From assembly GCA_914767715.1 (NCBI GenBank), contig OU612072.1, forward strand, positions 22,070,001 through 22,134,000: a stretch of 64,000 bases of DNA, in the 5' to 3' direction. Below the pieces are notes generated by a model, which saw only the letters and a list, made by a program, of their open reading frames with translations, had not been told where the DNA came from and did not search any database. Positions 18,050 to 64,000 of this stretch are shown in pieces. Positions within the stretch are counted from its first letter, which is position 1, and every line of letters begins with the position of its first letter. Made by a program: the position numbers and the translations under genes. Source of the DNA: Membranipora membranacea (taxonomy: Eukaryota; Bryozoa; Gymnolaemata; Cheilostomatida; Membraniporidae).

Positions 18050-18747
18050 GTCTACTATACATCATCACTTATCTATAATACGTAACGCAATCGTAATCTG
18101 GATATATAACTGTACCAGCAGGCAAACCTGGAGAATTCATCTTCTACTTATTCATTTGGTCCTTAGTTTTACTAGTTTGGAAGCAGTTTGTAATATAATG
18201 ACCAGATTATATATACATGGCTCCCGATATAAAGGAGATTAACATTTCCGTACCATAACTGTTGTTGAGTAATTCAGAGCATTAGAATGTGATCGATTTG
18301 AGCTTTAGTTATGAAGATTACGTTACATTATTATACATCATATATCCCGAAGACCAAACATTACATGGTGATGATGAAGCTGCATTTTTCTAAGAGAGAG
18401 TCTTGCCCAAGTCAATAAGTTTTCTGAAATAAAAAATGACTTTACTGGTTGAAGTCATGTCTTACTACTCATGTAGCTGAAAGTGGTTTTATGGCATCAA
18501 AACTTCTTTCATCTTCATGTGTACTATGACTAGCGATGTTTGGTTATTGATTCAAGTAGATTTAATGGTGGTATTTTTCCTCACTGGTCCCTGTAATACC
18601 ATTCCATGGTGTAGCTGTTGGAAAAGTTGACAATTCTAAATACCATTGAGCTGTTTACTTATTTTTGTTAAGTGTTACGATTTTTTGTAATATATCATTG
18701 TCTATATTTTGTATCAGTTATTACTTACTTTATTTTATCAATGTTGC

Positions 18748-30800: not shown

Positions 30801-33800
30801 AAGGGATTGATTGAAATCACTTGGGCACACAGGCTAGTTAGATATAGAAACATGATCTAAATGGCGTAAAATGCGTAATTGAGGCCAACACACTCTGCTT
30901 TTCTCAGGGATGGTAGAATTCACAATGATAAAAAAGAAGAAGGCTGGATCTCGGCTGAAAGGAGGGCAGAATGTAGAATTACCTGAATCTGCGTCGACGT
31001 TTACCAGTGACATTAAACTGTCGGCTGGCCCTAAATCTGCACACAAAACACAGCTAAAGTTAGAGGATGAATTATACACAAAGTAAGCTTTCATGTTTAT
31101 ACCACTCTAAATCTAATACCCACACATTTAGTATTTACTAAGACATGGACTTGGACCTGGTACATTTATGGTTCTATAACCGGAAACACAGTAGCGTGAT
31201 AAGCTAGTTATTGGCGGCAGCGGACGGTGTATGATGCTCATGACATATGAGTTTATACATGGATGAATGGTCTGTCTGTCTACAGAAAGGCTTTTCGACT
31301 AAAAAAAAATTTGAAAAACGCCCATTCATAGAACATCCCTATGTAAACTCACATATGCCTACCGCAGGAAAATTGAGCGGCCGTTTTAAGCAGCGAGTTG
31401 GCTGGTAGCAGAAAATAATATTAACAGTACTATCAGCAAAAAAAATGCTGAAATCTAGCAGCAGGTCTATCATTATAGCAACTTAAACTGCAATGCGATG
31501 ACATAAAGTTACATTTGCCACCAGCTCAAATGCCAATTAAATGAGATGAGATATAATTGTTTATCATACCGTGTTTTCCTACGTGTGTAGTGTACACTCC
31601 GAGGGCGTCTACACTACCACCCTTCAGCCCTGACATGATCTTTGACGAGCCACCCTAAAAGCAAAACATTGGTAAGTGAATGAAATATACAGGCATCGAT
31701 ACGAGCATCGGCAACTTACATCCAAATATTACATTAGAGGAGTTATGTATTTGCATGAGGAGAAGCTAGCCATTTCATATACTATCAAACTACCTGACAT
31801 TCAACCTTAGCTAACATTTACTCACCCACTTGGCTTCATATAGACTCCCACCTCAGGCAGCAAAAATATAGTGCAAGCTAACATTAAGTAACCCCTAAAG
31901 CAGCTAAATTAAACTCTTGCTAACATTACTCATCTAGGGTCATTGTAAATTCAGCAATACAAACAGTTGCATAAGGGAAGGCAACTCCCATCCATCAAAT
32001 TAACAAAAATTAAGAAGCTAACATCCTATTGTGTACATGAGGACAACAGTTTGTAATACAAGGACGCCGCTTCGCACATAATATTACAAGATTACCTAAT
32101 ATCTACCCTAGGAGAATAAATATCAGCTAGATTCCAGTTTAGACTGTTTAGGGGTGACTTCATGTTAGCTACTGCCAATTAAGGCTAGCTAAAGTGGATG
32201 TGTAAATGTTAGCTAGCAATAATATTCACTATTCAAAGAATAAAAGCGAGTTTTTTTCCTCCCTCAAATACCTTACTTATAGCATCTACCATCTTGCGCC
32301 CCTAATTGTAGTTCTGACCTTAAGGTGATGGTGATTGGCTGTTTTAGCAGTGCTGGAGGAGGCGGTACTTACCTTACAATGATGGTGATTGGTTGGTTCA
32401 GCGCTGGAGGAGGCGGTACTTACCATACGATGATGGTGATGGGTTGGTTTAGCAGCGCTGGAGGAGGCGGTACTTGCCTGATGATGATGGTGATTGGTTG
32501 GTTCAGCGCAAGAGGAGGTGGTACTTGCCTGACGATGATGGTGATTGGTTGGTTCAGCGCTGGAGGAGGCAGTACTTACCTTACGATGATGGTGATTGGT
32601 TGGTTTAGCAGCGCTGGAGGGGGTGGTAGTATTAGATGAGATACTACCGACAGCACTGTCACTGGATGTGCTACTACCTTCACTTTCTCTGACTAAAATA
32701 GAGATATTAGGTAAAGGTCATTGTTTACTGATAACTAACTATACTGCTATTATTCACAGGTGCTACCCTATTCACAGTCACTATATGCTACCTTATTCAC
32801 AGGAGAATGAGGTGGCTCACTTGGTTGGAGCACCGGTCCTTTAGCATACAAATGTTGGGGTTTGGTTGCACCAAGGTGTGCTCCGATCTGCCTGTAAAGA
32901 GAGACCAACCTGGCGCGGATATTACGCCTCAGCCCCCTTTTTTAAACAAGTCACTATATTACAAACTTAGTATAGATCTAAAGTGATCTATGACTAAAAT
33001 GGAGAGATCAATTCATGGTTTCTGTTTACTGAGAACCAAGTTTACAGCTAGCATGTATGATATTTTACTATAATATTGTCTTAATTGAATACTAGGATAC
33101 ATCTCTGAAGGGCCATCATACACATTAAAAATGTACTGCTTGATAGACTGACTAGCTATATAGAACGCTAATATATATATATACATATATACATATATAC
33201 ATCGTATATATATATATATACATATATACATTGTATATATATATATATAAACATATAAACATATATATATATATACATGTATCGCTGAAGTCACATAATG
33301 GACAGACTTTGAGCATGTTTGGGATTATGAGACTGATAGCCTGCAGTAACGCCCGAGATTGGTATCTTATGAATCCTCCTGTCAGGAGTAGTTCTATGTG
33401 ACAAGCGCCAGGAAATGGGCCACATCACATATAGTGACGCAAAAGTTTATTGTAATAAGGAGACACCAACCCCCCCCCCCCCCCCAACATAAGACAAGAC
33501 ACCGGTTGAGCACTTACTGAGAAGTTCTCTCACATCCTCCATATCCAGAGGATTCAGCTCGGCGTACTCAGGGTCCTCAGGCTTGGTGTCTGAGAGAGCT
33601 AGTGATGATCTCTGTGAGGACGGGCCGTATGACTCATCACCCTCACTCACCTACAGCATTATTATAAGAAACTAGGCTATAGTGAACAGAAGGGTTACTG
33701 ATGGCAAAAGAATCTTCCATCCTGCCTATGGGATTTGTTATTGATTATTAATAATCTATTTTCTCTCCACAGCACATGTCGGCTTTTGCCTATCATCTAA

Positions 33801-36800
33801 TTTGTTGAATTTGAATGAATTTTTATTGATCATTGACTGATGTGACATCTTCACTTTCTCAAGTAGTCAGTTTGACAGCGCCAGCAAAATATTTTATGTT
33901 TTCAAATCCAGATTCTGACCTCAGTGAGATTTTTGCTGCCGCTCCCTCAGTCCCCTCCATCCCATCATGGAGCATCATAGCATACCTGTGTTCTGGACAC
34001 TGATGTTGCGGGTGGTACATGTAGCCCCCGGCTCCGCCATTGTGCATCAGCATAGCCTGTCAACGAACACAATTCATTACAGTTTCAATTACCATTCAAA
34101 GTTCACTATACATTCATAAAAAACACAGACAAATTGGCTTATATCCAAAGAAAGCTATCACATAATTATAAGCCTGTAATTCATATAGATCACTTTATAT
34201 TCATAATGATATAGTCTACCATATGAGGGGAACTTAATCTTATTAACCAGTAGACTTAGCCCCCAAGAATCTTACCCCCCCCTCCTCCGACGGGGGCCAA
34301 GTCTGAGAACTATGTAGGAGTTTGCTAAAATTGTCTGCTCCTGTAAAATACAAGTACTAAAGACATCTTCTAGAACTGCAATATCTTTTGAGTTTTACTC
34401 CTTCCTGAAGAAAGATGTTATTCTGTGGGCCGTCATTGAAATGTGTGCATCTTTTGTTTACCATCTACAACTCTAAATATCCCCAGAAGAAGCTAAGGGA
34501 CAAACGCCAATGTAGTCTGGGCCCTCCAGACCTTTGCCCCCGCCTGATGGCCCCCGGCGAGGGAGTCGCCAATGTCTTTATTTAGTAACCTCGTTACGCG
34601 GCTCCTTTTTTTGGTTAGGGGAAAGTAGCTGGGTGACAAGGCTATCTATTTAGTATTAAGTATGTTTGCCGTAGCCTGTAATTTGGACATGATGATGACC
34701 TAATGACTGGATTATGGATAACATCTGCAGACAGTGAGATCCAGTCAAATATATCACTCTGACCTGAGCTGACTTGATATATGGGGGTAGCGTCTTATAA
34801 GGCTTCCTGCACTACAAACTAGCCTAGTGCCATATTATAATGCACAATCAAATGTTCTTAATGTTTGCTATGTCCAGTACTTAGATTTTTAGTGTGTGGT
34901 TATAGGGTGTTTTTAAGTGAGAGCGCATGTGGGCCTACTCAGTGTCAAAAGTTAATCCATTTTGGTAAGCAAGGCTGCCACATTTTCTGTGATGGCAGGT
35001 TCAAATCAGAGACAGCAACAGAAGTTCAGGGGCGTGTCTGGGGGGACTGTCCAGCGGGGGTCGAGAGTCTAGGGGCTCAGACTACAGACGACATATAGTC
35101 AAGTCAAAAATAGATGATATTCTTTGGATAAAGCAAGCCTTAGGCGTTTATGTAAAACAATGTGCTCAAACATTGTCATGTGGACCCTTCACAGCCAATG
35201 ACCGACTAAATAATGCACATTTGGAAGTCTCTGTACTTTGTGACCTCCTGTGTGGATAACGAGATTTACTCACATGATGCTGGAAGAGTTCCCGTTGATG
35301 TTGCTCTTGCATGTGGAGGTAAAATTGACGTGATGTAAAACTGTCGACGAGATTGAACTCCGATAGTTGTGTCTCGGTGCGAAACACATGCATGTATGAC
35401 TCAACTGTGAAAATATGAGAAATTAGTGATGGTTAAAACAAAGTATAGTATTCGGAATAATGTTAACTTAACCTATCCAAGTTCCTAATCATGTGTAGTC
35501 AATATATCATCTCCCCCCCCCCCCCCACCCCTACAGGTAGAGGGCGGGGTAAGATAGCGGATTGTCGCTAACTAACTACTGTATGGAGCCTGTGAACAGA
35601 AACTAACAAATCACTTTAGATAATGTCGATCAGGTACGCCTTGATCAAAGTTGCAAACCAAAATACCCTGAGCCACAATAGATTGACAATAAAAAGCATA
35701 CACATAAAATAGCATAAAAACTTATTTTTGTAGATAATTTACTAAAGTTATACCAAGTTTAGAGATAGTTGGTTTCTTTTTGTGCGCCATGTCGCATCTG
35801 CTCACAAGTTTATGACTTCTGGCGTCTAGAGACAATCCTAGTGCACTTTTTTACATCTCCAAACTCAAAGTGTCAAGAATACAACGCGAACAATACTTTA
35901 TTATCTTAATACCAGGACAATTACAAGTGATATTATCCGACCTAACCAATCATGACTTGTGTAACAAACTCTGAACCAATCAGAATTCAGTTCAAAATGC
36001 TCAAACAATACATTGTGGTGGGGAAACTATCCAACTATTCTATTGCCTTTATCTAACTGGGATAAATCAATTAGAATATCCCAAAACAAAAAACAACCAA
36101 CCAGTGATCTTGATTACAGAAATAAACCTAGAATAAAATATCAGCCAGTTGATTGTAACCTTGTCTCCCAGCACATAACCAACATACACGACATGAATAA
36201 TTGATGCCTATGAGCTCTTGGTCATCCCCGTGACTGTATACCTTTATAGACGTTGACACAGACCCCACAATATGAGCATTCAGCACCCCACCTGGTGATA
36301 CTACACGCCCTCTCTCAAACAATCTCTGCTCAAATACGTCCCTAACACCTAATTTTTGGATTTTTTAAGTCTTTTACATCTGGAGGACCAAGTTTCAAAT
36401 CACTGTTACCAACATTTGAGGAATAATGATCTGAAGTAGAAGTGCTGGCTCAATTTGTAAGAAAATTTTATTCAGAAACCTTAACTCAGCGAGACACTAC
36501 ACTCGAGCTAACATTACCGCAATTACTGTACTAAGCCGATCATTGAGTGTGTCTGTTGTTGTTTTCTCCTCATGGAACACTTTTATTGCGTCTTGAAACT
36601 CCCTCCCTATTCAATTGAAGGACATTAACAGGGGGAGGGAGGTGATGAGTATTTCATAAGGAGAAAACAACAGCAGACACACTCAATTTCCAGCTTAAAA
36701 TATAGTCAATGTCATAATGTTAGCTCCGCAATTACGTAATCCTGAAATTGGGATCCCCGAAGAGCAAAGCTTTTCAACCAACAAGTCAGCACTTCTGTTT

Positions 36801-39800
36801 CAGGACATTACTTCTCTCAAACTCATCACAGAGATTTGAAACTGGGACCTATAAATGTAAAAAGACATAGATAAACAATATATATTAGGTTAGAGCACCC
36901 TCTATAATACCCACATCATTGTAGTGTCTCCTGTATTGGTTGATATCTAAAGGATATAGTTTTACTCAAGTGGCAGCAGGTGAGAATTTGTACAATTCTG
37001 TTTGATCAACAAATCCAAGACGTTTTATGTATACTTGTGATCTTATAACTTGTAGATCCCTAATGATATAATCATCTTGTCTTGTGGATCTAAGAATATT
37101 ATTAATATTATTCTTAGATCCACAAGACAAGATGATTATATCATTAGAGATCTACTGTTAGGGTTACCAAGTGCTCAGATTATCTTTGTCACTTTATTAG
37201 CCCTTCTATATTAAACCACTGCTGACACGGCTGGGCTTTGCCCAGCAGAGCCACCAGTCAAAAATTTAAATAGAGAGTTGTGGCATCAAAACATCTAGCC
37301 AGTAGCTTTGAGTGGAGTTATATGAGCGCTCATAATGTAGGGAGTATTTTCTTCCAAAGCCATCCACCATTAGAAATGACAAATTTTGTTGTTGACAAAT
37401 CAGGCGGTTTTAAAATCTAGCTGAGATCCAACACTAATAAAAATGTTGGATCTCAGCTAGATTTCAAAAGCACCTGATTAGTAAACAACATGCCCAGTTG
37501 TGGCAGCAGTGGTTTAAGATAATAAGAACTAACGCACTGGTGATCAACACCTGACTGCCAACATCAAAAATTCTAATAAGATTGAAATTTCAATTGTCCA
37601 ACACATTTAGATAGCGGTCTGATTTTTAAACTTGTTATTGAAAATATTTATAATTTCTCTTCCTGCTAGTAGCTTTTGCTTGGAATATTTTGAGCACAGC
37701 AGGCTGACTTACTGTCTATAGCTCGCCCTCGTAGATTTCCACTGGACTGTATCTTACTAGACAGCGAGTCTTCTACCAGAACATCAGACCAAATATTCCT
37801 TCTCTTTCTGACCTGAGTCACTGCTAATAACGTCAGGATAATAATAACAGTTGAAGTAACGATTTAAACATTTAGTATTGAATCTAATTTAAAGAGATTA
37901 CTCAGGTTTTACATCTCGGACATATCATGATGTCATTTAGAGCGGAGGACAGCAAAAGACTGGCTGTTTTTAACAAAACATCATATTAAATAAAAAAGAT
38001 TCAATTAGCCCCACTTTGGAGTTGCTTCCCCTCTACTCGATTGACTACAAGAAGGAAGCATGTGATACATATTCAGACACACTGGTCGGATACGAGTGAG
38101 TTTTGCGTGCATTTCTCATTGTACAAATGTAGTGTTTGATACCAATGTTCGTTAAACATACCGCCATCTTCTAGCAGCTTGAACTTTAAAAGTGGAAACC
38201 AATCAAGACTACGTTCAGCTGAATCAAAAATTTAGAAGCAAAACTTATAAGGTTACTAGAGAGATATTTAGACTATACACATACTATACCTGCATGCTGC
38301 CGCCTGTGAGTAGATAATGATGCCGTTTAGTTGGAGTTTTATCTTCTTACCGCTAATATAACCTCTGTCATCACTCAGCTCCGAGTCTGCATCATCTGAG
38401 TCGTCTCCTCCTAACCTGGGACTCTCTCTGAATGTGTGAGCTCGTGAACATGGCTCTGAAATAGCGCAACAGATTGAGTAAAGTGGTGAGAAACAATTCA
38501 GGGACTTATATGCTTGACTTTCTATACTTGACTCATTTTATAACTCCAGAATTTACCTTTTAATTATTGAGGTTCAATCATAACTTTCTAAATGGTACCA
38601 ACGAAGTTGTAAATTGAATCAGCACCAGCCAATATGATGAATGATATATTAATTATGACAACTGAAAAAGCCTGGCTTTTGATAGCACTGGTAGAGATAA
38701 GATAAGATATTAATAAACGGTAGCTATCATAAGAGTCAAGGCTTTTGAAAACAATATAACGTAACAGTATTTTTGGTATGATATTGAAAAGCCAGCGTTG
38801 AGTTGGCTGAAAGCGCAACATCAGCAGCTCGTATATCAGCAAGCCGACACACTAAACTGTGTCAAGCCGACACACTAAACTGTGTCAAAACAACACTGCT
38901 TCGTACTCAGATTACTCAGATTCTCATAAACCTTATAATAGGGTGGTTGCTTACAATTCCTCTCCACTCCTAATATAATCTTTAGAATGCTTCAACATTA
39001 CAAGTCAAACCAGAAGTCTATTTATGGTCTAGGACAAATAATATGACACGCTTGTGATAGCTTGGTAGGGAGGGCTAGTTAAGCACACATACAGGCATAC
39101 CATCACAATATGGGCTAACTTAATCATCATCAGATTAGTCTGTCTCAGGTTAGACAACTGATGTCGCTCTGGGAAATATGTGCTCAATGGATTCTGTATC
39201 GCTCAAAGATAGCAAATCGAGGCCTTAATCTCAAAATTGTCACCGAACAGGCCCATAATTTGCACAATCTGATTGCCAACAGTATGGAATCAAAACACTC
39301 CCTGTTATTGACACTAAACTTCTGCAAATAATTTGCCCATCAGGTGACAATCCTGAGAATGAAGCTTCCATTAGTCATTGATACAGAATTCAATGAGTGA
39401 ACATTTCCCTGAATGGCAGCAGTAGGTTAAACTTTAATGTGACCTGATGATATCATAAGCACACGCTGATGACCAAATCTTACCCACACTGGTCACATGA
39501 TATACTATTGCATGTATATATCTGATCGATAGAGAGTGAATTAATTCATTTAGCAAGAATACCATCACAAGGAATTTGGTGTGACCACCCAACTCTTTGG
39601 ACCACCCATGTTCACTTTTATTAACTAGGGGTGAGTACATGTTAGTTACTCGTATTAAATTGACTCTAACAATCAGAGATACACATGATAATAGCGTAGT
39701 CTCAATGTCAGTGTGAATCTTATCTTCCCTTATACTAACCTTGAGGTGCTCTGGAGCTCATAGCAGGGTTATTCGGCCGAGGTAACGGATCTGGAGCGAC

Positions 39801-39905
39801 GTAAGAGCTCTTAGAACTGCCGCCATAATCACTAGCTTTGATCTGTCCGACTTCCTCGTCACCAGAATCAGTGATCTCTCCTTCCTCTACTTCTCCGTCC
39901 TCCAT
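21816..39905 (-). CDS. RAPGEF1: RAPGEF1 (C3G)-like guanine nucleotide exchange factor, right copy, complete
   Basis: The 17 exons on the minus strand are 39,905-39,740; 38,455-38,351; 38,303-38,290; 37,812-37,713; 35,404-35,274; 34,056-33,920; 33,650-33,518; 32,692-32,580; 31,654-31,570; 31,036-30,983; 28,639-28,465; 27,873-27,688; 26,922-26,791; 25,883-25,754; 24,777-24,578; 22,941-22,810; and 21,939-21,816 with a TGA stop. This gives about 705 residues, shorter than vertebrate C3G (over 1,000). Residues 1-130 are acidic and PHAX-like. The REM domain lies at about 345-450 (FLTTYRTFITPEDLIDKLLY). RasGEF lies at about 467-700, with HEIAEHLTLIE, EHFNKMSWW, LRKHNNFNSLLALLSALDSA, EPPCIPY and NFSDH. 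C3G activates Rap1 at the membrane downstream of Crk adaptors. I saw no PxxPxK-type Crk sites. Exon 6 is 137 bases, one T short of the left copy, which breaks the frame unless exon 7 starts at a second AG (33,645). The N-terminal assignment is less certain than the catalytic half. Confidence 0.88.
24086..24437. mobile_element. 352-base fold-back element between RAPGEF1-like exons 15 and 16
   Basis: Begins TATGCTTCTAGTGGTGCAC AACAAT and ends ATTGTTGTGCGTCACTATAA GCATA. The arms stay complementary for about 150 bases through TGTGAGAGGAAC/TTTCTCTCAC, GAAGTTCTCC/GAGAACTC and GGTGGCCCAGTTTTC/GAAACTGGGCC. The core around AGGTACT/AGGACCT is shared with the element at 16,140. No coding capacity. Confidence 0.7.
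25456..25660. mobile_element. Fold-back element, ~70-base inverted repeats
   Basis: AAGGCTAATGGACAAGGGAT at the left end pairs with CATTCCTTGTCCATTAGCCT at the right, continuing through GAGAGACT/AGTCTCTC, CCAGAT/ATCTGG and GAATCTC/GAGATTC. Lies about 90 bases below exon 14 of the right RAPGEF1-like gene. Confidence 0.7.
27053..27222. mobile_element. Copy-specific insertion with fold-back core
   Basis: About 170 bases present in the right copy and absent at about 1,283 in the left copy. It contains TTTTCACAGTTGAGATGTGA AGGTACTAAAAAGGTAC, the core of the elements at 16,140 and 24,086, without a clear second arm. Likely a truncated relative. Confidence 0.5.
27688..28639 (-). other. REM (RasGEF N-terminal) domain exons, right copy
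   Basis: Exons 11 and 12 encode the REM domain. It contains the diagnostic FLTTYRTFITPEDLIDKLLY, then RYNKFAHSKD, a basic KKRLSRNAFSLLVRVLDEL helix, and LLKLVTELVREGELTLAKIM. In C3G the equivalent helices brace the catalytic CDC25 domain. The match to C3G extends over the whole domain, not only the short TYRTF signature, which separates it from SOS, RasGRP and RalGDS relatives. The left copy is at 1,889-2,735. Confidence 0.9.
32322..32640. repeat. Minisatellite, ~6 units, spanning an exon end and splice donor (right copy)
   Basis: Expanded version of the array at 6,425-6,595. Each unit carries exon 8 end-like sequence plus a donor-like site; some donors have decayed (ACTTGCC in place of ACTTACC). 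Read on the minus strand the array stays open across units, so read-through of a donor would add about 18 residues per unit. The long plus-strand open frame here is only a by-product of the repeat. Confidence 0.85.
32805..32945 (+). mobile_element. tRNA-derived SINE-like element (right copy)
   Basis: Homologue of the element at 6,762-6,905, inherited through the segmental duplication. It has the same GGTGGCTCA…TTGGTTGGAG head and degenerate B box, ending in a T run. Confidence 0.45.
33165..33275. repeat. Expanded TA-rich microsatellite, right copy
   Basis: Runs of (TA)n mixed with ACATATATACAT over about 110 bases. The left copy has only a short version near 7,130. Intronic. Confidence 0.85.
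36542..36686. mobile_element. Fold-back element (MITE-like), right copy
   Basis: Homologue of the element at 10,775-10,921 with the same terminal inverted repeats. The insertion therefore predates the duplication. Confidence 0.7.
37054..37153. repeat. Near-perfect palindrome, right copy
   Basis: Same palindrome as at 11,285-11,389, with arms that match slightly better (TCTTGTGGATC with GATCCACAAGA). Confidence 0.75.
37211..37517. mobile_element. MITE with terminal inverted repeats, right copy; internally deleted in left copy
   Basis: Begins TTAAACCACTGCTGACACGG CTGGGC and ends GCCCAGTTGTGGCAGCAGTG GTTTAA, a pair of imperfect 26-base inverted repeats. An inner pair GATCCAACACTAATAAAAAT / TTGGATCTCAGCTAGATTT adds a second hairpin. 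The left copy retains only the first ~45 bases (near 11,442-11,486), followed directly by downstream sequence, so it has lost about 430 bases relative to the right copy. Confidence 0.6.
37713..39905 (-). other. PHAX-like N-terminal exons of the right RAPGEF1-like gene
   Basis: The first four exons encode an acidic leader starting MEDGEVEEGEITDSGDEE, then a DDSDDADSELSDD stretch, then a basic block running into RKRRNIWSDVLVEDSLS. PHAX, the phosphorylated adaptor for U snRNA export, has the same order: an MEDG acidic start, Ser/Asp runs, and a basic block leading to N-[IV]-W-x-x-V-L-x-E. No trace of the PHAX RNA-binding domain was found in the window. Splice phases run without a break from these exons into the C3G exons. 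Resemblance to PHAX is my reading by eye. A lineage-specific C3G N-terminus is the alternative. Confidence 0.45.
38290..38303 (-). other. 14-base micro-exon (exon 3 of RAPGEF1-like gene)
   Basis: A 14-base segment between a CTCACAG acceptor and a GTATAG donor converts phase 1 (end of exon 2) to phase 0 (start of exon 4) and adds residues GGSMQ. Without it, exon 2 cannot join exon 4 in frame. The left copy has the identical segment at 12,086-12,099. Called from phase arithmetic and splice borders only. Confidence 0.55.
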
Positions 39906-41493
39906 TGGTTATATGTAAGGGGATCATTGCAAGCAACTCTCCTAAAACAATATTATCACAATGTTGGCTATCAGGTATTGCGTTTTACGTTTAGGCCTAC
40001 GCTATGCGTTGACATTTTATGGTCTAAATCTTCTTATGGTAGACAAGTTATAACAGTAGACATGATTGAAACTCCCAGCTACAGAGAGGATGTTCAGAAC
40101 AGAATATATTTTCATTGCAGAATCAGCCAAGTTCGTCGTCTACAACTCCTCCCTCCTAGATGGCCCTAGATCTTTAACATGATTCTTTCTATTTTAAAAT
40201 AGTCTATTAATTAAAATTATGAATGAAGCATGAATTAAATAGCCTAAGCCTAGAACATGGCCCCAAGAAACAACAATTGCAAATGATTGCTATTAAAAGT
40301 AAGCTTCTTAATGCCTACTGTGGATCTATATAAGTGATCACTGCTTGCTTAGATAATCATTGTTTGTTTTGTAAAATCTGCTACATCCAACAAATTCACA
40401 GAAATCCTCCAGCTAGGCTAGTAGGGAAAGCTACTTATCTCAGATCCACCACAATGTCAACCGTAACTGTGCCACACATATAAATATTTCACTACAATCA
40501 CCTCACCTCAAGACTGCACATATGTAGATAGCTCAATTTGGCTTGTTCTGCAGACAGTGCATGTATTTTTTCTTCACTCCTCACTTATCATTGTCCAGCT
40601 TTGTCTTTTCTTTTTCAATTGCAACACTCTTAGAATAGGAGATAAAAAAAAACCCTCACTTTTTAAAACACATGATTTGATTGGCTGCATTATGATATGG
40701 AGTATTGGTATAAGTATTCTTGGAGAGAAAAAGTTAGTAGGGCACTCAGGATTACTTCATTATCACATCATTTGTGGTGACTTTGACATTTGGAATCTAC
40801 TGCTTTAAAGATGGTATGTGCTAGCAATTGCAATTTGATATAGCCCAATATAGAACCAGGACTATGGAATTAATGCCTGATAGTCATGAGAATGAAATGA
40901 TCATGAAGAAAGAAATGTATGAATGAACCAGTTTTTATTATTTTTACTTGCTAACTAATAACATCTTAATTAATTTATAAATAGATTTGCTGCCTGCAAT
41001 TTTGTATAATAATCTTCAACTTATAGTGCAGTATGAATGGTAATTTGTATAATTCTGCCCTACCCGTCCCATGTTAGGGTACTTGTAGTCATGGTGTCAC
41101 TCAGCACTGTCAGCAGGTAGCCACACATTGACTGATTTAACTGTGTGCATGATTTTTTATTCAACCACACTTTACCTAAGCTAAGCGCTGACTAACTGAC
41201 TTGAGTGAGTAGTAGTATGATCACAGAAAGTAACCCTACTCTCAGTACAGACTAGCTAAATAATAGCTCTCAATATTGTTTGGCTCCTGTGAGCCTGAGC
41301 ATTTATATTGTCGAGGCGTCTTGCATCAATCATACACTTTGCGCATGAGCACCCAATCAATTCAGGGCGGTAATCTTTGCACCTTAGCATTTGGATTTAT
41401 CCAAATGTGAGTTCTCAGACTGAAGAGTTGCCCTGTTCGCACTGGTCAAACATTAAATTTATGTGCAAAATGTAAATGTAATAGGTCATTTGC

Positions 41494-41632
41494 ATGGGCC
41501 CCTGGGACTTACATGTCTTTACTTTGCCAATGTCCACTATCAACAACCCAAAAAACACCAAACTTTGGTGTTTTTTGGGTGGTTAATAGTGGATATTGGC
41601 AAAGTAAAGACATGTAAGTCCCAGGGGCCCAT
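41494..41632. mobile_element. Long perfect hairpin insertion, right copy only
   Basis: ATGGGCCCCTGGGACTTACA at one end and its exact complement at the other; arms of about 65 bases meet at ACCAAACTTTGGT. The left copy has an empty site (ATAGGTCAATTGG near 15,073). GGTCA occurs on both sides of the insert and may be a 5-base target duplication. The near-identity of the arms points to a young insertion. Confidence 0.75.
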
Positions 41633-41725
41633 GGTCAATTGGTCCAGTTTGTGACACTGTCGCTGCGATGCAGAGTGACTCGTATCGTAGAGTCGCTGCA
41701 GTGCATAGAAGCTTATATAGCCTCA

Positions 41726-41769
41726 GGGCAATGAACTTCCTGGAACAAGATGGAGTTCATTGCTCAGGG
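41726..41769. repeat. Small hairpin insertion, right copy only
   Basis: GGGCAATGAACTTCCTGGAA CAAGATGGAGTTCATTGCTC forms a short stem-loop absent from the left copy, which reads CCTCAGAGAGTATGCAGG at the homologous place. Confidence 0.5.
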
Positions 41770-42233
41770 AGTATGCAGGCAAATTAACTGTCAGTACATC
41801 TGTGGTTGATGCAGGTTTTCTTGGTACATCATTGCCATTTATTAGGGTAGTTTTTTTCAGGTCAATCAGTTCAACATTACACACTGTCATTTCAGATTGA
41901 TTTAGTATATGGATATGGTTTTCTTTTTGTTCATGACAGTGTTCTGGTCAATATGAGACTGATTAGTCAAAAAATCACTCACGTTTCATCATAACTTGCC
42001 TGTACCATGAAAGTATGAAGTCATTGAGAATTATAGGGTAGTTTAGTACACCTGCATTCCTTTACCAGATCATATCATCAACAAAACAATTCTTATTTAT
42101 GTCAGGTCTTCCTCACTTATAGCTTTAGTCATTCCTAAAATACACTATGCTATCTAGGCTTATAATTTGGACTGACCCTATTTCATCCTTGTATGGCTGA
42201 CATTAATATCACTGATTATGCTTGCTGTTTCAG

Positions 42234-43312
42234 ATTAGGTTTATTCTGATACAGAACCGAGCTGGTAAGACACGTCTTGCTAAGTGGTATATGCACTTCG
42301 ACGATGAGGAAAAACAAAAACTGATTGAAGAAGTCCACTCTGTTGTCACTGTGAGAGACGCCAAAAACACAAACTTTGTAGAGGTAACTAACTCAGGTTC
42401 CTATTTAAACCTTCCATATATTATTATTGGGTTTTATTCAAGAAGTTTTTACGGAACATACCCAGTTTCAGTTTCTCACTGCCCTAAGTTTGTTTGAGTT
42501 ACAGGAGCTCTACAATATTTTTTTAATCTTCCCTCAGTTGGCCACCAGACAAACATTTCAAGATCTATATGATATATGATTTCAGCTAATTTGGAATCAA
42601 TCAGTCATCAGACCTGTTATAAATAAGTGCCTGCACTCCAGTCCCCAGTTAATTGCTCACAATTAACACTGTTCTCACTTTCTCTCAAACTCTGAAACAA
42701 TCCTACCAACACAAAAAAGCATGTTCATATTAAAGTAAGAATCAGGTTTGAATCATTCTAGAGTTCTCAGTGTTGTTTAAACCACTCTGTAAGGTCTATG
42801 AACTGTGGCCTATTTGCAACCTATTTTCACTCACTCAAAGTTGAGATGAGAAGGTACTGAAAGGTGCTTTCTTAAGGATAAAATATACAATATAGTACCT
42901 TTTTAGTACCTTCTCATCTCAATTTTGTCTGAAAATCAGGTGAAAATGGGCCACAGGTAATGAGCTTTATAGTAGGTTTCTAAATTAGACTGAGAACTCT
43001 AGAATCATATAAAAAATATGTTACATTCACAGTCACTTTAACTAAGCCTAGTCTGATCCATCGTCATACTTATAATTTTATCCATGCCAAACTACTAGCT
43101 CACTCTTTATCATGTTACTCATGTCATGTTTTGTAGTTCAGGAGTTTTAAGATAGTATACTGACGATACGCCGGATTATTCTTCTGTGTATGTGTGGATA
43201 CCGCCGACAACAGCTCTTAGCTTATCTTGAAGCCATACATAACTTTGTCGAGGTGCTCAACGAATAATTCTACAATGTCTTCGAACTAGATCTAGTCTTC
43301 AACTTTTATAAG
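42234..43312 (+). pseudogene. AP2S1: AP2S1-like, right copy, disrupted and lacking its last exon
   Basis: This is the copy of the left AP2S1-like pseudogene. Exon 42,234-42,383 is intact ([20 protein letters not shown] onward, with family-typical FDDEEKQ where the left copy has FGDEE). Exon 43,137-43,312 shares the TGA (43,161-43,163) and the +2 frameshift of the left copy, and adds a TAA at 43,265-43,267 within the NEY motif. The final exon is absent: relative to the left copy about 227 bases (17,820-18,046) are deleted at about 44,434. Shared lesions show that inactivation came before the duplication; private lesions show continued decay. Confidence 0.87.
42750..43007. mobile_element. Fold-back element with long inverted repeats, right copy
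   Basis: Homologue of 16,140-16,398. Its outer arms pair better here (ATTCTAGAGTTCTCAGT with ACTGAGAACTCTAGAAT). Confidence 0.65.
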
Positions 43313-45144
43313 GTAAGTCTTTTATTGGGAGAGGAGTAAAGTATTCGAAGGAGGAAAAGTTTCACACAGGCTTGAAATAGTCAAAAATATGGCTAGCTAA
43401 CATTTAACTCAAATTGGTTTCTTTATGATATTATCTACCGCCATCTCCGTGCCCAGACCAAAGCTAGCAAGAATCGGTGCTAGTTAACATGAAGACACTC
43501 CCGTCTAATCGAAGCCAAATTAAACTTTAGCTCATATTCATTCCTCTGGGTATCATGTAACCATTGCCGTTGCCAAATTGTTTGAAATCAGGAAAACTGA
43601 AAAACATTGTTGCTGTAATTTTAGAAAAAAAAAATGAACTGCACCCCCTGATCCAATCCTATATATATTTACCTCACCATGATAATATGAGATGGACCCA
43701 AAGCTTTGAACATTAGGTGTAATAAAAAATGACATTCAAAGACCATAAAAAAAGAACATCCCTGCCTAACTATAGCATATCCTCCAATAAACCTGAAACT
43801 ATATGACAAAATAACCCACACTCCCTCCTGATTTTTTTGGTTTTCTCGGACACATTTTGAACGACAATGTTTCTTTGGCCCATTTCAACAATTTGGTGGC
43901 CTAGTTACTATAAATCGGTTTGTCTTGAGAGTTGTGGGTTATCTTTGGTTGCACAAGACTTGATATTCTGATTGCCTCTGGGCTAAATTGTTTAAACAGA
44001 CAAGGTGTAAGCTCACTTAGCCCGCTACTGGCATGTGAATCTTTAGACTGACCTCTCACCTTACATGATAAACTGGCTGCTAAGTAGATAAAATTTACTG
44101 TTTAATTGTAGCATAGATTCAACCATGTAGATCTGCTTAATCTGACTCTATAGTTGTATATATTTTTGAGGAAAGACATCCACTTTCATTGCCGTATTTT
44201 TTCGATGTGTAGTATCAGACCACACAGAACTTATTTAGGCACGTTTATAGCGAAAGCTTAGAGTTTGGTATATTTACCTTTACGCACTATCAAATTGGAG
44301 TTGTCCACTCAAAAACAGTGGTTCAAGGAGTGGACAACTCCTGAATGATGCTAAATTGCCTTTGAAATTCCACATTTTGTTTCTTAATCATGCTGATGAT
44401 ACTCGTTTGACCAACCTTAGACTTCTTAGTGAAATAAGTCTACTATACATCATCACTTATCTATAATACGTAACGCAATCGTAATCTGGATATATAACTG
44501 TACCAGCAGGCAAACCTGGAGAATTCATCTTCTACTTATTCATTTGGTCCTTAGTTTTACTAGTTTGGAAGCAGTCTGTAATATAATGACCAGTTTATAT
44601 ATACATGGCTCCCGATATAAAGGAGATTAACATTTCCGTACCATAACTGTTGTTGAGTAATTCAGAGCGTTAGAATGTGATCGATTTGAGCTTTAGTTAT
44701 GATGATTACGTTACGTTATAATACATCATATATCCCGAAGACCAAACATTACATGGTGATGATGAAACTGCATTTTTCTAAGAGAAAGTCTTGCCCAAGT
44801 CAATAAGTTTTCTGAAATAAAAAATGACTTTACTGGTTGAAGTCATGTCTTACTACTCATGTAGCTGAAAGTGGTACTATGAAATCAAAACTTCTTTCAT
44901 CTTCATGTGTACTATGACTAGCGATGTTTGGTTATTCATTCGTGTAGATTTAATGGTGGTTTTTTTTCCTCACTGGTCCCTGTAATACCTTTCCATGGTG
45001 TAGCTGTTGGAAAAGCTGACAATTCTAAATACCATTGAACCGTTTACTTATTTTTGTAAAGTGTTACGATTTTGTGTAATACATCATCGTCTATATTTTG
45101 TATCAGTTATTACTTACTTTATTTTATCAATGTTGCTACTGTAG
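43313..45144. other. Former AP2S1-like intron and 3' flank, right copy
   Basis: Collinear with 16,703-18,747 except for the deletion near 44,434 that removed the last AP2S1 exon. Contains a small hairpin (GGAGTTGTCCACTC…GAGTGGACAACTCC near 44,300, also at 17,680). The duplication ends at about 45,134. Confidence 0.6.
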
Positions 45145-55817: not shown

Positions 55818-58800
55818 TCAGTTCGGAGAATCCTGTTTTGGTGTATTTAGACCTGGAGGTAGTACTGGTTCAGTGAGCTCTTTAGGATGTTCTGTTCTCA
55901 TATTAACTCCTGGTGATAGGTAGAGCTTCCTGTCGTTAGTGAAAGTGCAGGTTGTTACAGGAATCTGACGATCCCCTTTATCCTCATCTTTGAATGGTGG
56001 AGTCTCCCTCACAATCGACTGAATCTAGAATATTACAACATATTTAAATCAGGTTTTCGATCATAAAACTTGTGGAGGCTGAACAAAATATGCCAATCAG
56101 GCATTCACGTATTTGAGTAGTTCCATCAATCTACCATTTGGACATAACCTCAAAATAAAACTTCACCTCTACATCGGTATGTTTCATAGCAAGCATCATT
56201 TGGTGTATAACCTGTATAACAGTTTATTGGTGGTATTTTCACCTGACCTGTACCTGATGTGTCGTTCTCTTTCTCAAAAGTTACATATCAGTAGTCACAT
56301 TTTTTAGTTTTCCTTAATTTTTTGATGCGGAGCCCACTATTTTCAAATATCATCACTAATTTGTCAGATAAATTATTGTGAGCATTAATGTTGAACAACT
56401 GACAAAGCATGTTGTAATAGAAGGTTTGTAAGCTGGTTAGAGGACCTGACCTGTAAAACACAAGGTGTTTTGAATCCCGCTGCAGTCTATGCGCCGGGTT
56501 CGGCGGGTGCCGCCTTAAGAATCATATCCAACATTAAAATAACATAGAGAGAAAACTTACCAGTTTACTCAGTTGTTCTACATGCTTCTTTCCCGCCTGC
56601 TTGTAGAATGTTGTAACAAGAGCTTTAATAAAGACTGACCCTGTTTCATCCCTGTTTGCAACATAATCTATAAAAATGATGAATAGCAATGAAAATATGG
56701 TAATGGATGTTTTTGCATTGTGGTTTTCAACAGTCAACGCTCTATGAATCAGGTAATTCCACTCACCAGTTCAATATCAAAATGTCATAATATTATAACC
56801 TTTGATGTCAAGGCCATCACAACTCAGAAAATTCTGAAACACTCACAGTTCTAAGCATTTTTTGCATCATTTTCAGGGAAACCAGATTTGCAGTGCAGAA
56901 TTTGATTTGCATTTCCTTTGGTTGATATATGTTTGATTGTATGCGAAAAATTGTAATGGAGTCTGCATGGCTACAATTACAGTCTTTCTGTCAGCATATG
57001 CGACTTTGTGTGCGAGAATAGAGACACACTGTGTTTCTGCATCCCATTGTTGATGGTATTGATGATATATCAGCTTTAATGTCAAAATTAAGTGCGCATA
57101 TAAATGGGAGAGTACTTTTGATAACATTATGTCTTTACTACTGTAGCTAAATTATTACCAGGAAAGCTAGGCTTGAAGATTATTAGATCATCCATACACA
57201 GATGACTGTCATCTGGAAAGTCCTCTGTATACTTGGTTTGGTCTCTTCTGGTGCTATCAGGTTTGTGTGAATGTTGATCTACCATGAGTAAAAAAAGTGA
57301 TTATCAACAAGCAACTTAAGCCAGTCTCCACCTATAATCATCATAATCTAATACATATTACAGTGTAAGTCACTTAATTCAAACTCTGGGGACCCAAGAA
57401 ATTAGTTCTAATTATGAGTTAATTTAATAACAATAATGCCAGCTCGCGGGGATTTTCAATGAATGTGGGGCGTATTTCAGGGGTTTGACAAACATCAACT
57501 TTTTATTTTTTGTATTGTGCAATGCAAGTGATAATGGAAATAAAACACTGATGACTAGTGAACAGTAGGAACCACTGAATTGGATATGCGGAGTTGGCAG
57601 CTTTGTTTAAGAGTGTTAAGTCCAGATATTGATCACTTCCTTTGTCTGCATTGCCAAAAACAAACATCTGAACAAGGAGTTACAATATTCCTTGGTTAGT
57701 AAAGACAACTTCGAATCATAAACCCTCTGAATATATTGAGTTATTTTCTTCCTAGGTAGGGGAGGACAATTTCGAATTACAGTTACATTTTCGAATTAAA
57801 CGAGTCTAAAAACCATTGGCTGAGCTGGGACCACACTCAGTTGTCTGAATGAACAGGAATTTCGAATTATCAAGATTCGAACTAACCAGCTTACACTGTA
57901 TATTATATATGATATAATATATAGATTGTGTTGGTTTTGTATGTGATGTTTTTGTATGTGATGAACTTGTCTGCATATGAATACATCAAACTTTGATTCG
58001 ACTTAGTTACTACAATGAAGAGCTTTTACAATTGTCTCTCCTTGAGGCACTACGGAGCAATTTCAACTTAATTACTTAAAAATAGCATCATTACAGTTAC
58101 CTGCGACAAGTGAATCGGCCAGTGCAGGGCACACTATAAAGGCACACAAAATTTTCATTTAATGTTAAGTGAGTTAGAGATATCTTTGAATGACTTCAGA
58201 CCCCCTGCAAGAGTTGATTTTCTTTTCAGCAATGGGACTAACATGAATACATCAGATCTTTTAATTTAGATTGACAGTTATAATAGTGAAGAAGCATGAC
58301 AGGTACCTGTGGTTTTCCTTTTCTTTTGAGCAGGACCTGGTGTAGGTTCTTGTGTTCGCTTTTTGTACTGTCCATCTGATGTTGAAGGCATATCTCCGTC
58401 TGACAATGTTGTGGCAGATATTGACTGGATATCTTGGTTCTCTAAAATAGATTTCATCATTCATGATTTGCAAATAATAAGGGCACAATTATATACTTTG
58501 ATATTAATTTCACATACTCAAGCATTTTGATCAAACTGATATTTTATCCTAGGGTGATGGACAACGTTTAAAATTGTTAATAATTAAGTCTGATTAGTGA
58601 GAACATGTATTATTCTGACACTGCAATGGGAAAAAAATCTTTTTTAATTAATCGACATTTTTTTTATATTTCATAAGCTTCATCAATGTCCAAATTCTTA
58701 TAAATACACAGTCTCAACACAATTAAATACTTTTACTACTACTGCAATTTTCTGCAAGAAAGTATAAACATAATACAAAGCGCTCACTCACATATAAGTC

Positions 58801-61800
58801 ATCACATGAGCTGATCAGATAGCATGCACAGGATTCTACTTACCAGTCAGAGTATATGTACCTGCTGATCTTGTGGGTACCCGCTCTAGCTTCATCTCCT
58901 CTTCTGAAATGTAAAGCAGTCTTTAGTTTCAAGTACCCTGCAAAACGTGGTCCTAAATCTAGCATTTTGAACCTGCATTTTGAAAATATATTACCGCTCC
59001 ATAAGTGTGAATATACCCTGCTGATATGTCTAGTAACACTAGGTGTTAGTATTTTGATGACTCACACCTTCCTGTGTTTCATATGCAAAGTAATCTTAGT
59101 AAAGAAAGCAGTGTTGCTGGAATGACCTTTTTTACTTAACACCACAGCCTCAAAAAAAGTAGGCGAAGCCATGTGAACATTCCTGATAAGTAAACTAAGT
59201 TCACCTATGTTTAATAGCCTTCTTAAAATCTTCAAACACATGCATCACAGTTACACAATTTGATGATTCATGTACAATGAATAATGAATAAGAGCATTTA
59301 TTTAGCAAACCTCACCTCCCGAGCAGGCTTGTAGTATAATCATCTTTGGCTTTCCCCTCATGGCAGGAAATTTATCTGGTGCCAGAAGTCTGTATATATC
59401 TTCGAGATACATGTCCTTTGTTTTAGTCTTCATACATCCATATCCACCATGACCCATCAGCACCAGTGCAAACATTCCAAGATTAGCATGAACTGACGTT
59501 CCTGTGTCCTTGTCTACATACTTGGTCTCATATGCAATCGCTTCATACAGTTCCTGTGGGCAATTCAAAATGACCATTAAATGCGATCAAACATCAAAGT
59601 CATGAAATTAATTATCGCAGAGCTCATTCATAGCAACAATCAATATGACTAATTTCAGAGCTTATCTTTGGCTCTAACCAGATACACTTTGTGAGGAAAA
59701 ATTCTAGTCATAGAGAAGTCATTCAATTATATTTATCCTAGCTACGTACCTATAATGGCACACAAATCGTACCTGATGGCTCCAATCCTTGTTCATACTC
59801 TGTTCACTGATGATAAATCCAAAATTTTTGAACATTATTATGAGATTTTGATAGTCATACTGGGAACCTTTTCTCTCTCCTGTTATGCTGTAATTTAGGA
59901 TAAGGGCTCTACCCCGAGTGGCTGTCATTCTGTAAACCTTAAAAGATTCAAGTGTTTATTGTATACGATGATACGAGAATGTTAAAGGATAAATATTCGA
60001 TTGGTTCGATGGAAACATCTATTCAATAGAATCTTATGTATAGCAATAATGATCAACGAGGCTTTGAATGCTGGGACCTCAAAATTATTGTAAACTGCAG
60101 ACGCATTCCAGGAATGGAATTATTTATGTTATTCAGTCATGAAATTCTGAACCTAAGATTAGCATGCCTACTACCTTTTCAGTATAAGGTGTGCCATACA
60201 ATGACGTCTGATACTCAGGCACCATGTCTATAATTCCTTTCTGTGCTTCAACCAGTCGCTTTAATTCTGCTTTCACATTGAGTCCTTTCCTCAGGATATA
60301 ATCTTTCAAATCATTGTATTCTTCGAGGAAACCTAAATCAAAAACGAAAAGAGGATTTAGATTTGGAGTGTGCGATGGGCGCCAGGTAAAATTTTTTGAG
60401 TTTAGTTAAAACCACAAAAATAGATGGTCCCTGGTAACAATACTGAAATATTTTATTTATGAATTTATTTGTTGATTGCAAAGCAAGGGAATGGTAGTTT
60501 AACTTGTAAGTTATCATACATGTGGTTCCCAATGATATTGAGCTTGGTCTGTCTGGTAGTTCCTTGCCATCATCCTCTAACAAACTAAGCATAACAGATT
60601 ATTAAACCTACGTTGTCCTAAAAGTGCAGATGGTATTCCAGTTTCACCACTACATGAACCTGTTCTCTCCGCTGGTTGTCTGGTTGTAGGTGGGTAGTCC
60701 ATCAGTGCTGGATTGGATTTCTCATTCATGCAACAATGTGGGCAGGGAATTTCATATGCTATCTCTGTTGCAGGCCAGGCATCCTTTGCTGCAGATGACA
60801 GTTTTCTGAGAAGCAAATAGAATTTCTGCCAACATTCCTTAATCACAGAAACAGACCCATCTACTTTGATTATCAATCTCTGTGCTTCTTTCTCAGCAAC
60901 TAAGTGAACATCAACATCCAGTTGATCAGATCTTTGACCGTGTACTTTTGCGGATGCTCCATTACCATACGGGTAAATTTGATAACTTTCCTGCATAAGC
61001 TCAAGGAATGTCACTGTCAGCTGGTGAAATGCATAGTCAGGCACTTTCAATCCAACAAAACTCAGAGATGCATATAGCTGAAACTCAGCTCTATGATGAG
61101 AAAATGAATGTTCAGGCATGAAGTATGGCATCAGATAGCATTCATCCTGATTATTGATTACAGTTGGGCCAAACAGAAGTTTGAACTTTACCAAAAGCGC
61201 AATAGCAATATCAGACGGTATCTTAGAGGAGAGGGTAGAAATGCGGGAATGAAGGTCAGCTTTGCTCATAATTCCATTTCTCTGATAGCTGCTGGGTCCT
61301 GAAGTAACTATTCCATCTGCTGATTGCTGCATGACGATATCAGGAATCATAGTGTGACTATACAATGATTCTATGAGCTCTGTTAAAACTGGTATTTTGT
61401 GGAACACAGTATTTGCGAGCCTAGGGTTAGAGGAATCTGGGTACCACAATATCTGACCAGATCGCTTCATGAAGTCAAAAACAGTCTGAGGGTGCTTCAG
61501 AGAAGGAGAAATAAGGTCATATTTGAGATAGCTGTCATTATTCTTGGTGAAGGGAAAAAGCCAATCCCTGGGAATAGAGCATTTTGAACCCTCTACTCTG
61601 TTGTAGAGGTGTCTCTCTAGCCTCTGGAATACTGATGAATAGACTTCATCTTGAGAAAAGCCTACTGAGAACACATTTTCCTGGCTGAACACAGATGAAA
61701 CATGATCCCCGTCAGAATGAACAGCAAGCCTTTCTATTTGACTGTTTTCATTTAGAAGGTCATCAGTCAAATCTTGTAGAGTGCGAGTGAAGTCACCAGC

Positions 61801-62521
61801 TAGTTTTTCATACAGGTCTAACTTAGTTCTATATTCATCATGGTGGGTGAGAACTATGAGGGGCTCTTGGATCTTTTGAACTGCTGTCCCGAGGTGTGCG
61901 ACCCAATTGAAAGCGACTTCCCTTGTGGCTTCACGTGGTCCTCGCTTTTTGGCTATTTCTTCGAATTCTGACATATTCACCACGACTATTGGTATGCAGT
62001 CTCCACGCATTGTCAGGTGGTATCCGTGATGGTAAATTTCGTCACCTCCAAAGTCAATAACCTCGACATCACTTTTCTCTGAATCAGGGCCTTGAATCTG
62101 TACCTTCTCAAAACCAAAAACCTTTGTTTTTTCAACCCTTGCATCATGTGGACTTCGAGCTTTGAACTTATGCTTCATGACACTTAGAAGAGAAGACTTC
62201 CCTGCCTCTTTTCTACCAATGAGGACAATAGGTGATAGAGAGATTACTTCTTTTCCACTTTCCATGTCTGTGTAGTAGTGTTTTATGTCGCTCCAACCTC
62301 CTTGACACACAGCAAAGGGTGGCTCTATTAGCTTGTTGCACTCCTTACAGCTGAATTTGGAGAGATTCAGCGAACTAATACTGGAATGTAATCGGATGAG
62401 ATCAGAGTTTTTATCAAGGTTCAGATAAGTTAGAGAGACTAGTTCACCGATCCATTCAGGTAACTGTTTGATGTTATTATCGCTCAACGTCAGCTTTTTC
62501 AGTCTCCTCATGGTTCTTATA
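55818..62521 (-). CDS. LRR–Roc–COR–caspase fusion protein (ROCO caspase)
   Basis: Nine minus-strand exons, all with GT/AG borders and consistent phases: 62,521-60,612; 60,332-60,175; 59,937-59,773; 59,553-59,316; 58,903-58,862; 58,441-58,307; 57,278-57,159; 56,667-56,561; 56,024-55,818 (TGA). From the ATG at 62,511 the protein is 1,023 residues. Residues 1-50 are leucine-rich repeats. Roc GTPase has P-loop GRKEAGKSS at 99-107, DFGGD at 153-157 and THHDE at 222-226. COR follows to about 560. A caspase p20 at about 690-834 has RGRALILNY, His776 in LVLMGHGG and Cys818 in QACSG. An Asp-containing linker with KKRK leads to p10 (MDDLIIFKPSFPG, NRDETGS with Arg925, LYLSPG). The family implies a GTP-regulated sensor carrying its own protease, probably cytosolic. 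The in-frame bases before ATG look like a continuing LRR behind an acceptor, so more LRRs probably lie upstream. Confidence 0.9.
56426..56520 (+). mobile_element. tRNA-Thr-like SINE head
   Basis: TAAGCTGGTTAGAGGACCTG, ACCTGTAAAACACAAGG and GTTTTGAATCCCGCTGC line up with the D-arm, anticodon arm (TGT) and T-arm of a tRNA-Thr-like sequence, but the acceptor stem and D-stem are not intact. The following CGCCGGGTTCGGCGGGTGCCG is a short GC hairpin. It lies in the intron between exons 8 and 9 of the ROCO-caspase gene. Confidence 0.5.
57361..57898. mobile_element. pogo/Tigger-like MITE with TA target duplication
   Basis: Starts CAGTGTAAGTCACTTAATTC and ends GAACTAACCAGCTTACACTG, complementary termini flanked on both sides by TA. 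Internal TTCGAATTA motifs and the TA target site are typical of mariner/pogo-type elements. 538 bases, no transposase. It sits in the intron between exons 6 and 7 (caspase linker) of the ROCO-caspase gene. Confidence 0.7.
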
Positions 62522-64000
62522 CTGAATAAGATGAGATATATTTATGTGTATATCATACTTATCAGATTAATATGATTATTTATCTTATTTTGATTTCATT
62601 TTGGTCAAATTTGTTGCTCGCCAAATACCGAGATCAGTTCAGTTATTTGTTCAACAGTATATGTGGCATCCAATGAATTTATCTGCAGCTGGGAGCCAAT
62701 ATATTTGAGCATTCCACAGCATAAATGTTGATCAATGTACCACTAGGGTAAGTCGTCGATGTTAAAATAAACTGATAATCTGAAGGGGATTATTGTTAGG
62801 CAATTATGAGTGAAACCGGATTGTATTTTCATCTTTTTCAGAGTTGTCTTAAATGAGAGTGATGTTGCAAACGCGTTCCCATCAGTCACATTCATAAAAA
62901 TGTCAAAATAAAATTAAATTTGAATCGCCTGTAGGCTCACTTGTTGTAGTTAATTGGTGCATCATCTGTGATTTTGACACAAATAAAATACCACAATAAT
63001 ATATACAATATATTTCTCATCATAACCAATGCCTTTATTTTCTGAAGCTATGTCTATCGGCCGCAATGAAGGTGTTGTTGGGGAGATTGGGACAAAAATA
63101 ATGGCACCTCAAAGTTTATTTCACCTGATGAGAAATCAAATCGGCCAAAACGAGAAGACAATATCATCAAATAGCCGGCGGAAATTTACCAACCTACTTC
63201 ACCCCGATCACTGGGAACTACCTTTACCAGAAAAAAAATAGGCACAATAGTGTTCAATATTTAAAAACTATAACTGAACCCAACGGGCAAATCACCTTGA
63301 ATTATCCTCCAAAAAAATATGGCGCCCGTATAAATCACAATCACTGTGGAAGTGAACAATTCGATTGAGAACTGTATGGCCGCATTGAAGGTGAATATAA
63401 GAAATCAGAGGGCTCTCTTGAGGCAGCAGTTAACGGGACTTATATATCCCGGAGAAATTCGGGGATAGACCAGCTGACTGCTTTATGTTTTTCATAATCA
63501 TTATAAAAATGTCATTATTACTTTTCCTCTTCTGAGATCTAGTAAAGACTACAATTCTGTGAGTCTGCTCTCTGTTACCGACAGCATCCACATTCCACAC
63601 AAATATGTTACACTGTTTACTAGTACACTGTTAGCATTGTACACAATATCATGTGACCTGGATTTTCCATTACAATGATAGGGGTTCTCCCATTTCTTAT
63701 GATAGTTTTCTCCTAATGTAATATTTTTTGCCCCCTAAAAACGGCCCCAGCTCTCTATTGTGTACACTGAGAAAGGTAAATTTTGCGGTTTTGAACATTC
63801 CTAAGCTTTCTCATGAACTGTAAACATTAAAATTGAAGCCCCAAAGAGATATCATGAAACTGAAAGCTAGCTATTAGTTGCTTTCGTCGGACTACCTATT
63901 GTTATGTTGCATTTATGGTTGCTACAGGTCTACTATGAAATAATTTATCCCTATTCGGATTAACGGGATGACTGTAATCATGACCACCCATCATGCACAG
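62522..64000. other. Intron or 5' flank of the ROCO-caspase gene
   Basis: No LRR-coding exon recognised on the minus strand and no other gene. The acceptor at 62,522 implies at least one more upstream exon, either here and missed or beyond the window. A plus-strand ORF at 63,029-63,241 has no supporting feature. Confidence 0.4.

Follow-up and report, generated by a model that had tools for sequence, protein, structure and literature searches.

The minus strand of a 64,000-nucleotide stretch of the genome of the bryozoan Membranipora membranacea (contig OU612072.1, positions 22,070,001 to 22,134,000; the whole stretch is called the window here, and its first letter is position 1) contains an animal gene that is predicted to encode an LRR, a Roc GTPase, a COR region, and a caspase in one chain. 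We give a probability of roughly 0.6 to the reading that this chain is a self-contained sensor, switch, and protease. If the fusion is expressed, the control that Roc-COR exerts over an effector would become readable by a caspase assay within one protein, in a family whose GTPase function is still debated according to a review of ROCO proteins (PMC6337361). The expressed fusion would also provide an animal parallel to bacterial defense proteins with the same order of domains, and would thereby bear on the origin of animal inflammasome-like systems.

Rebuilt from the sequence, the gene model runs from 62521 to 55818 on the minus strand and comprises nine exons, which join in phase across eight introns of 279, 237, 219, 412, 420, 1,028, 491, and 536 bp, all of them GT-AG. 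The model yields 1,023 residues from the first Met, with a frame that stays open, free of in-frame stops, up to a TGA. This bears out the first-pass annotation, which had claimed nine exons in unbroken phase with no stop or frameshift. The exons are the following.

62521-60612, minus strand: exon 1, the large exon, with the LRR end, the Roc GTPase (P-loop GRKEAGKSS, DFGGDE, THHD), the putative COR region, and a CPHC motif
60332-60175, minus strand: exon 2, the linker between COR and p20, with an open, coding-like frame in the phase that the ROCO exon sets
59937-59773, minus strand: exon 3, start of the caspase p20, with the presumed S1-pocket residue Arg708
59553-59316, minus strand: exon 4, core of the caspase p20, with His776 (MGHGG) and Cys818 (QACSG)
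58903-58862, minus strand: exon 5, short, following p20, with an alternative in-frame donor at 58844
58441-58307, minus strand: exon 6, the p20-p10 linker, with a basic stretch and two candidate sites of cleavage, TLSD/G and STSD/G
57278-57159, minus strand: exon 7, start of the caspase p10
56667-56561, minus strand: exon 8, caspase p10, with the presumed S1-pocket residue Arg925 (VANR where SWR is expected)
56024-55818, minus strand: exon 9, the last exon, with the end of p10 and the TGA stop

The two in-frame donors at the end of exon 5 (58862 and 58844) lie 18 bp apart and would allow an alternative splice in the p20-p10 linker. Downstream of the stop, neither AATAAA nor ATTAAA occurs in the 518 bp from 55817 to 55300. 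A frameshift or a dead caspase was ruled out, given that the frame is continuous and the catalytic residues are present. A close paralogue within the window was likewise ruled out: a tblastn search with the model (E values up to 10) returned, its own exons aside, a single match with an E value of 0.33 at 20088-19984.

In the caspase part, Pfam Peptidase_C14 is matched with an E value of 1.4e-23 over residues 694 to 985 (profile positions 1 to 230 of 233), covering both p20 and p10. Since this match spans six exon junctions, the caspase exons belong together. Among the best 60 of 180 matches to the PDB, the structures found are caspases, with a best E value of 4e-9 and with an engineered caspase-2, a reconstructed ancestral effector caspase, and caspase-1 in the lead. 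The catalytic pair His776 and Cys818 and the p10, all named in the first-pass annotation, are present, and its residue numbers were exact. By alignment, Arg708, Gln816, and Arg925 fill the positions to which we assign the S1-pocket roles, and with these three residues in place, cleavage after Asp is expected of the caspase part. The motifs TLSD/G and STSD/G in the p20-p10 linker are candidates for self-cleavage. The active-site pentapeptide is QACSG, which departs at one noncatalytic residue from QAC(R/Q/G)G; the usual caspase motif is described as QACXG, where X is R, Q, or G (PMC2575513).

Searches with the p20-core exon retrieved 25 relatives (P0007 to P0031; 55 to 98% identity, ORFs of 80 to 140 amino acids), showing that the caspase part belongs to a sizeable family. 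The source contigs of these relatives, taking the longest for each, measure 504 to 10,091 bp, and the relative with 98% identity is P0007, from a JGI source. The catalytic Cys and the Ser that follows it are conserved in 25/25 relatives, and the His and the Gln two residues before the Cys in 24/25 each. All 25 carry CSGG at the active site, and P0021 has a Gln in the place of the catalytic His. When the whole caspase part was searched against 5.8 billion proteins, no matches were obtained at 1e-3.

The LRR and Roc matches lie around the Pfam cut-off of 27 bits. For a longer stretch, LRR_8 reaches 28.9 bits (9.9e-7) and Roc 27.4 bits (4.2e-6), and with the 1,023-amino-acid model the values are 25.8 and 26.6 bits, respectively; the LRR match covers only the end of the LRR, which is the part inside the window. 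The Roc P-loop is located at residue 99, and the model contains the motifs GxxxxGKS (G1), DFGG (G3), and THxD (G4). G1 is kept, in its GKS or GKT form, in 5/5 sequences that cover this region (P0004 does not cover it), and G3 and G4 are kept in 6/6 aligned sequences. A profile built from six sequences, the ROCO exon and five relatives, matched the solved structures of LRRK2 (6.9e-11), LRRK1 (5.8e-10), and 6hlu (1.1e-8), the last of which we take to be CtRoco. Among the best 60 of 188 matches, these alignments extend over LRR-Roc only, and none of the 60 covers the COR region.

For COR itself, the Pfam COR-B match has an E value of 0.005 to 0.009 and stays under the cut-off. The region is aligned by five homologues, and among the relatives COR-A is matched in P0003 (3.7e-5) and P0005 (3.8e-8), both under the cut-off, with COR-A listed for P0005 in the precomputed annotation of the database. 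P0001 and P0002, the other two of the four Roc-COR homologues scanned, have no COR-A or COR-B match at 0.1. Position, conservation, and the sub-cut-off matches in relatives thus hint at a COR identity. Of the LRR, Roc P-loop, and COR claimed in the first-pass annotation, the first two hold, at the cut-off and with the P-loop at residue 99, and COR-B falls under the cut-off; a domain search of the kind suggested there likewise recovers Peptidase C14 and Roc and leaves COR below it.

A protein search with the whole model, in which only the 7,999 candidates with the largest numbers of shared words were scored, yielded five relatives of the Roc-COR exon, at 33 to 46% identity. In P0006, a protein of 868 amino acids, LRR, Roc, and C14 were found, together with COR-B at an E value of 0.076; the whole model matches P0006 with an E value of 1.1e-7, and the alignment covers 18% of the query at 29% identity. 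Because of its long uninterrupted ORF, P0006 is probably bacterial. When the 5 Roc-COR relatives were compared with the 25 p20 relatives by the length of their longest contigs, no two lengths agreed, and hence no second case of linkage between the two parts came to light. The Roc-COR and p20 alignments gave 74 and 27 pattern matches in viral contigs and 107 and 16 in genome contigs, respectively, none of them confirmed, and records of the animal's own genome may be absent from the genome contigs. PADLOC assigned 0 families to 2 proteins.

We predict with high confidence that splicing joins the ROCO exon to the caspase exons, counting in the case, discussed below, that the locus also makes a second product. 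The intron at 60333-60611 (279 bp) has the donor AAC/GTAGGT, and the phases of its flanking exons agree. Of 267 YAG sites within 8.3 kb, its acceptor has the tract with the most pyrimidines (15 among 18 positions). The donor at 60612 scores highest of 9 GT dinucleotides in 60700-60560 and falls within the top 7% of 3,575 GT, and its 1.29 bits are nevertheless mediocre, with 2/8 donors of the model scoring lower; these scores come from an approximate matrix. The linker exon has 35 codons ahead of its first Met, and these are free of stops and resemble coding sequence when read in the phase that the ROCO exon sets. With the ROCO exon as training set, their codon score is matched by none of 2,259 open windows among 22,985 null windows, which overlap and are not independent; this run used a separate background, and an earlier run, whose background was partly shared with the null, had the same outcome (0 of 838 open windows among 5,701). 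In the Roc-COR relatives, homology ends approximately at donor 60612, and their ORFs then continue for unequal lengths up to stops or contig ends, which fits read-through into an intron and not a common stop.

The joining intron also contains two AATAAA motifs (60469 and 60457), and the frame of the large exon meets a stop soon after the donor (ORF 60577-62541). These features, together with the mediocre donor, would suit a locus with two products, namely the spliced fusion and a caspase-free LRR-Roc-COR protein that arises by intron retention or early polyadenylation and might act as regulator or decoy. Given that AATAAA is common in A+T-rich DNA, we regard this second product as unlikely. 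The same stop, motifs, and donor could also mark the boundary between two adjacent genes, of which one would encode an LRR-Roc-COR protein ending after COR and the other a caspase with a short prodomain, for which the Met of the linker exon (MVPEYQ...) would be a plausible start and whose promoter would lie within the 279 bp. Against this arrangement speak the linker exon, with the pyrimidine-richest acceptor of the 267 and its coding-like codons ahead of the Met, and the Roc-COR homologues, whose ORFs have no common stop position after COR. Moreover, a terminator, a promoter, and a 5' UTR would have to share only 279 bp, so that two separate genes appear improbable to us. The first-pass annotation had placed all domains in one polypeptide; their content, their order, and the catalytic residues are supported, and a single chain is likely, as a prediction.

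The predicted chain is probably incomplete at its N terminus. The large exon follows a splice acceptor and begins partway through an LRR, and a search with one LRR pattern gave no match on the minus strand between 62541 and the window end (1.5 kb), which probably places the 5' part of the gene outside the window. The large exon is thus probably not the first exon, additional LRR exons are likely located beyond 64000, and the complete protein probably exceeds 1,023 residues. In the alignment, the ORF of P0002 begins with more LRR than the large exon of the window. No death-fold prodomain (CARD/DED/PYD) was found in the 1,023 amino acids of the window among 11 Pfam families up to an E value of 1. 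The first-pass annotation regarded an adaptor domain as unnecessary; this is an inference, given that the gene's 5' end lies outside the window and may encode an N-terminal adaptor.

The LRR-Roc-COR-caspase architecture has precedent in bacteria, and LRR-caspase hybrids exist in amphioxus. Bacterial LRR-AP-GTPase(Roc)-COR proteins are described with C-terminal effectors of at least 24 domains, caspase included, and a counter-invader role has been predicted for them (PMC8195603). The predicted bryozoan protein has an identical order of LRR, Roc, putative COR, and protease, and P0006 resembles such a bacterial protein. Differences are the introns and the animal-type p20/p10 caspase of the bryozoan gene, and the similarity to P0006 is weak. 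In amphioxus, LRRs-caspase and TNFR-caspase hybrids were reported and proposed to be a shortcut (PMC2575513). They share with the predicted protein the combination of a sensor-type domain and a caspase in one animal protein, but Roc, GTPase, and Miro have no mentions in the main text of that article, and X in QACXG is R, Q, or G there and S here.

Other eukaryotic ROCO proteins agree with the prediction in part. Sea anemones possess novel genes for LRR-Roc(Ras/Miro)-COR-TIR_2 proteins (PMC5094078), in which an animal LRR-Roc-COR is likewise combined with an immune effector and COR is likewise seen at a low threshold, whereas the effector is TIR_2 and not a caspase. In brown algae, group 3 of the ROCO proteins carries a C-terminal peptidase of entry IPR009003 (PMC11378527). 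These are also eukaryotic LRR-ROCO proteins with a peptidase at the C terminus, but the peptidase entry is a different one, and the word "caspase" is absent from the main text of that source. A review divides ROCO proteins into groups 1 to 3, represented by MFHAS1, LRRK1/2, and DAPK1, with kinase, death, and other domains added (PMC6337361); the terms caspase, protease, and peptidase do not appear in this review. The predicted protein shares the Roc domain and, putatively, the COR of this core with MFHAS1, LRRK1/2, and DAPK1, and the LRR-Roc-COR order with group 1 in particular, but unlike group 1, described there with nothing beyond LRR-Roc-COR, it has a C14 caspase following COR. For the sponge Dysidea avara, CASc and COR both appear in the legend of an NLR figure in a study from 2026, not necessarily in one protein (PMC12909245). 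Among the literature matches listed, mainly the main text of nonsubscription articles, none describes an animal LRR-Roc-COR-caspase.

If the chain functions as predicted, the LRR would sense a ligand or damage, and the nucleotide state of Roc would rearrange the COR dimer such that two caspase domains are paired into a productive dimer. Alternatively, the caspase domains might be restrained by the LRR-Roc-COR body and be freed from it once GTP opens that body. In either case, self-cleavage at the Asp sites of the p20-p10 linker would fix the active enzyme, which could then start cell death or a similar defense response. The direct fusion would stand in for the CARD/DED/PYD contact that usually connects animal platforms to caspases. 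The first-pass annotation had proposed an oligomerization switch driven by GTP, which is unsupported, as the bacterial ROCO protein CtRoco is reported to be a dimer without nucleotide and to become a monomer upon GTP binding (PMC11052575). By analogy with CtRoco, activation of the bryozoan protein need not proceed through GTP-driven oligomerization.

Beyond the single chain, we tentatively consider that an animal lineage may have rebuilt a death machine of the bacterial one-chain style from a ROCO protein and an animal caspase. The nucleotide state alone would then suffice for activation with no adaptor, and the gene would belong to an expanded, unreported family of QACSG immune receptors; this possibility is less probable than the single chain itself. 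A real fusion in which the caspase is nonlethal, with a role in signaling or processing like some animal caspases, and in which the ROCO part provides a scaffold, seems very unlikely to us: the Ser of QACSG, shared by 25/25 relatives, may mean an altered specificity, but the S1 pocket for Asp (Arg708, Gln816, and Arg925) is intact by alignment, although such a pocket is a poor separator of lethal and nonlethal caspases.

Elsewhere in the window, a stretch of ∼19 kb occurs twice in tandem (1-18747 and 25773-45136), with collinear pieces that are 92.7 to 98.2% identical and one piece at 87.1%. This pair reflects a duplication of recent date or else two haplotypes that the assembly placed one after the other. 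In the first copy, one exon encodes RasGEF_N and another a clathrin adaptor small chain, and near-identical ORFs are found in the second copy. These two exons and the introns agree with a eukaryotic origin of the window, and the animal-type caspase indicates an animal. When 10 selected ORFs from outside the gene were scanned with Pfam, 2/10 matched a family. Finally, the segment 32311-32628 is similar to itself at offsets of ∼105 bp and others, and it is overlapped by a minus-strand ORF (32289-32717) that encodes a repeat rich in His, Ser, and Thr.
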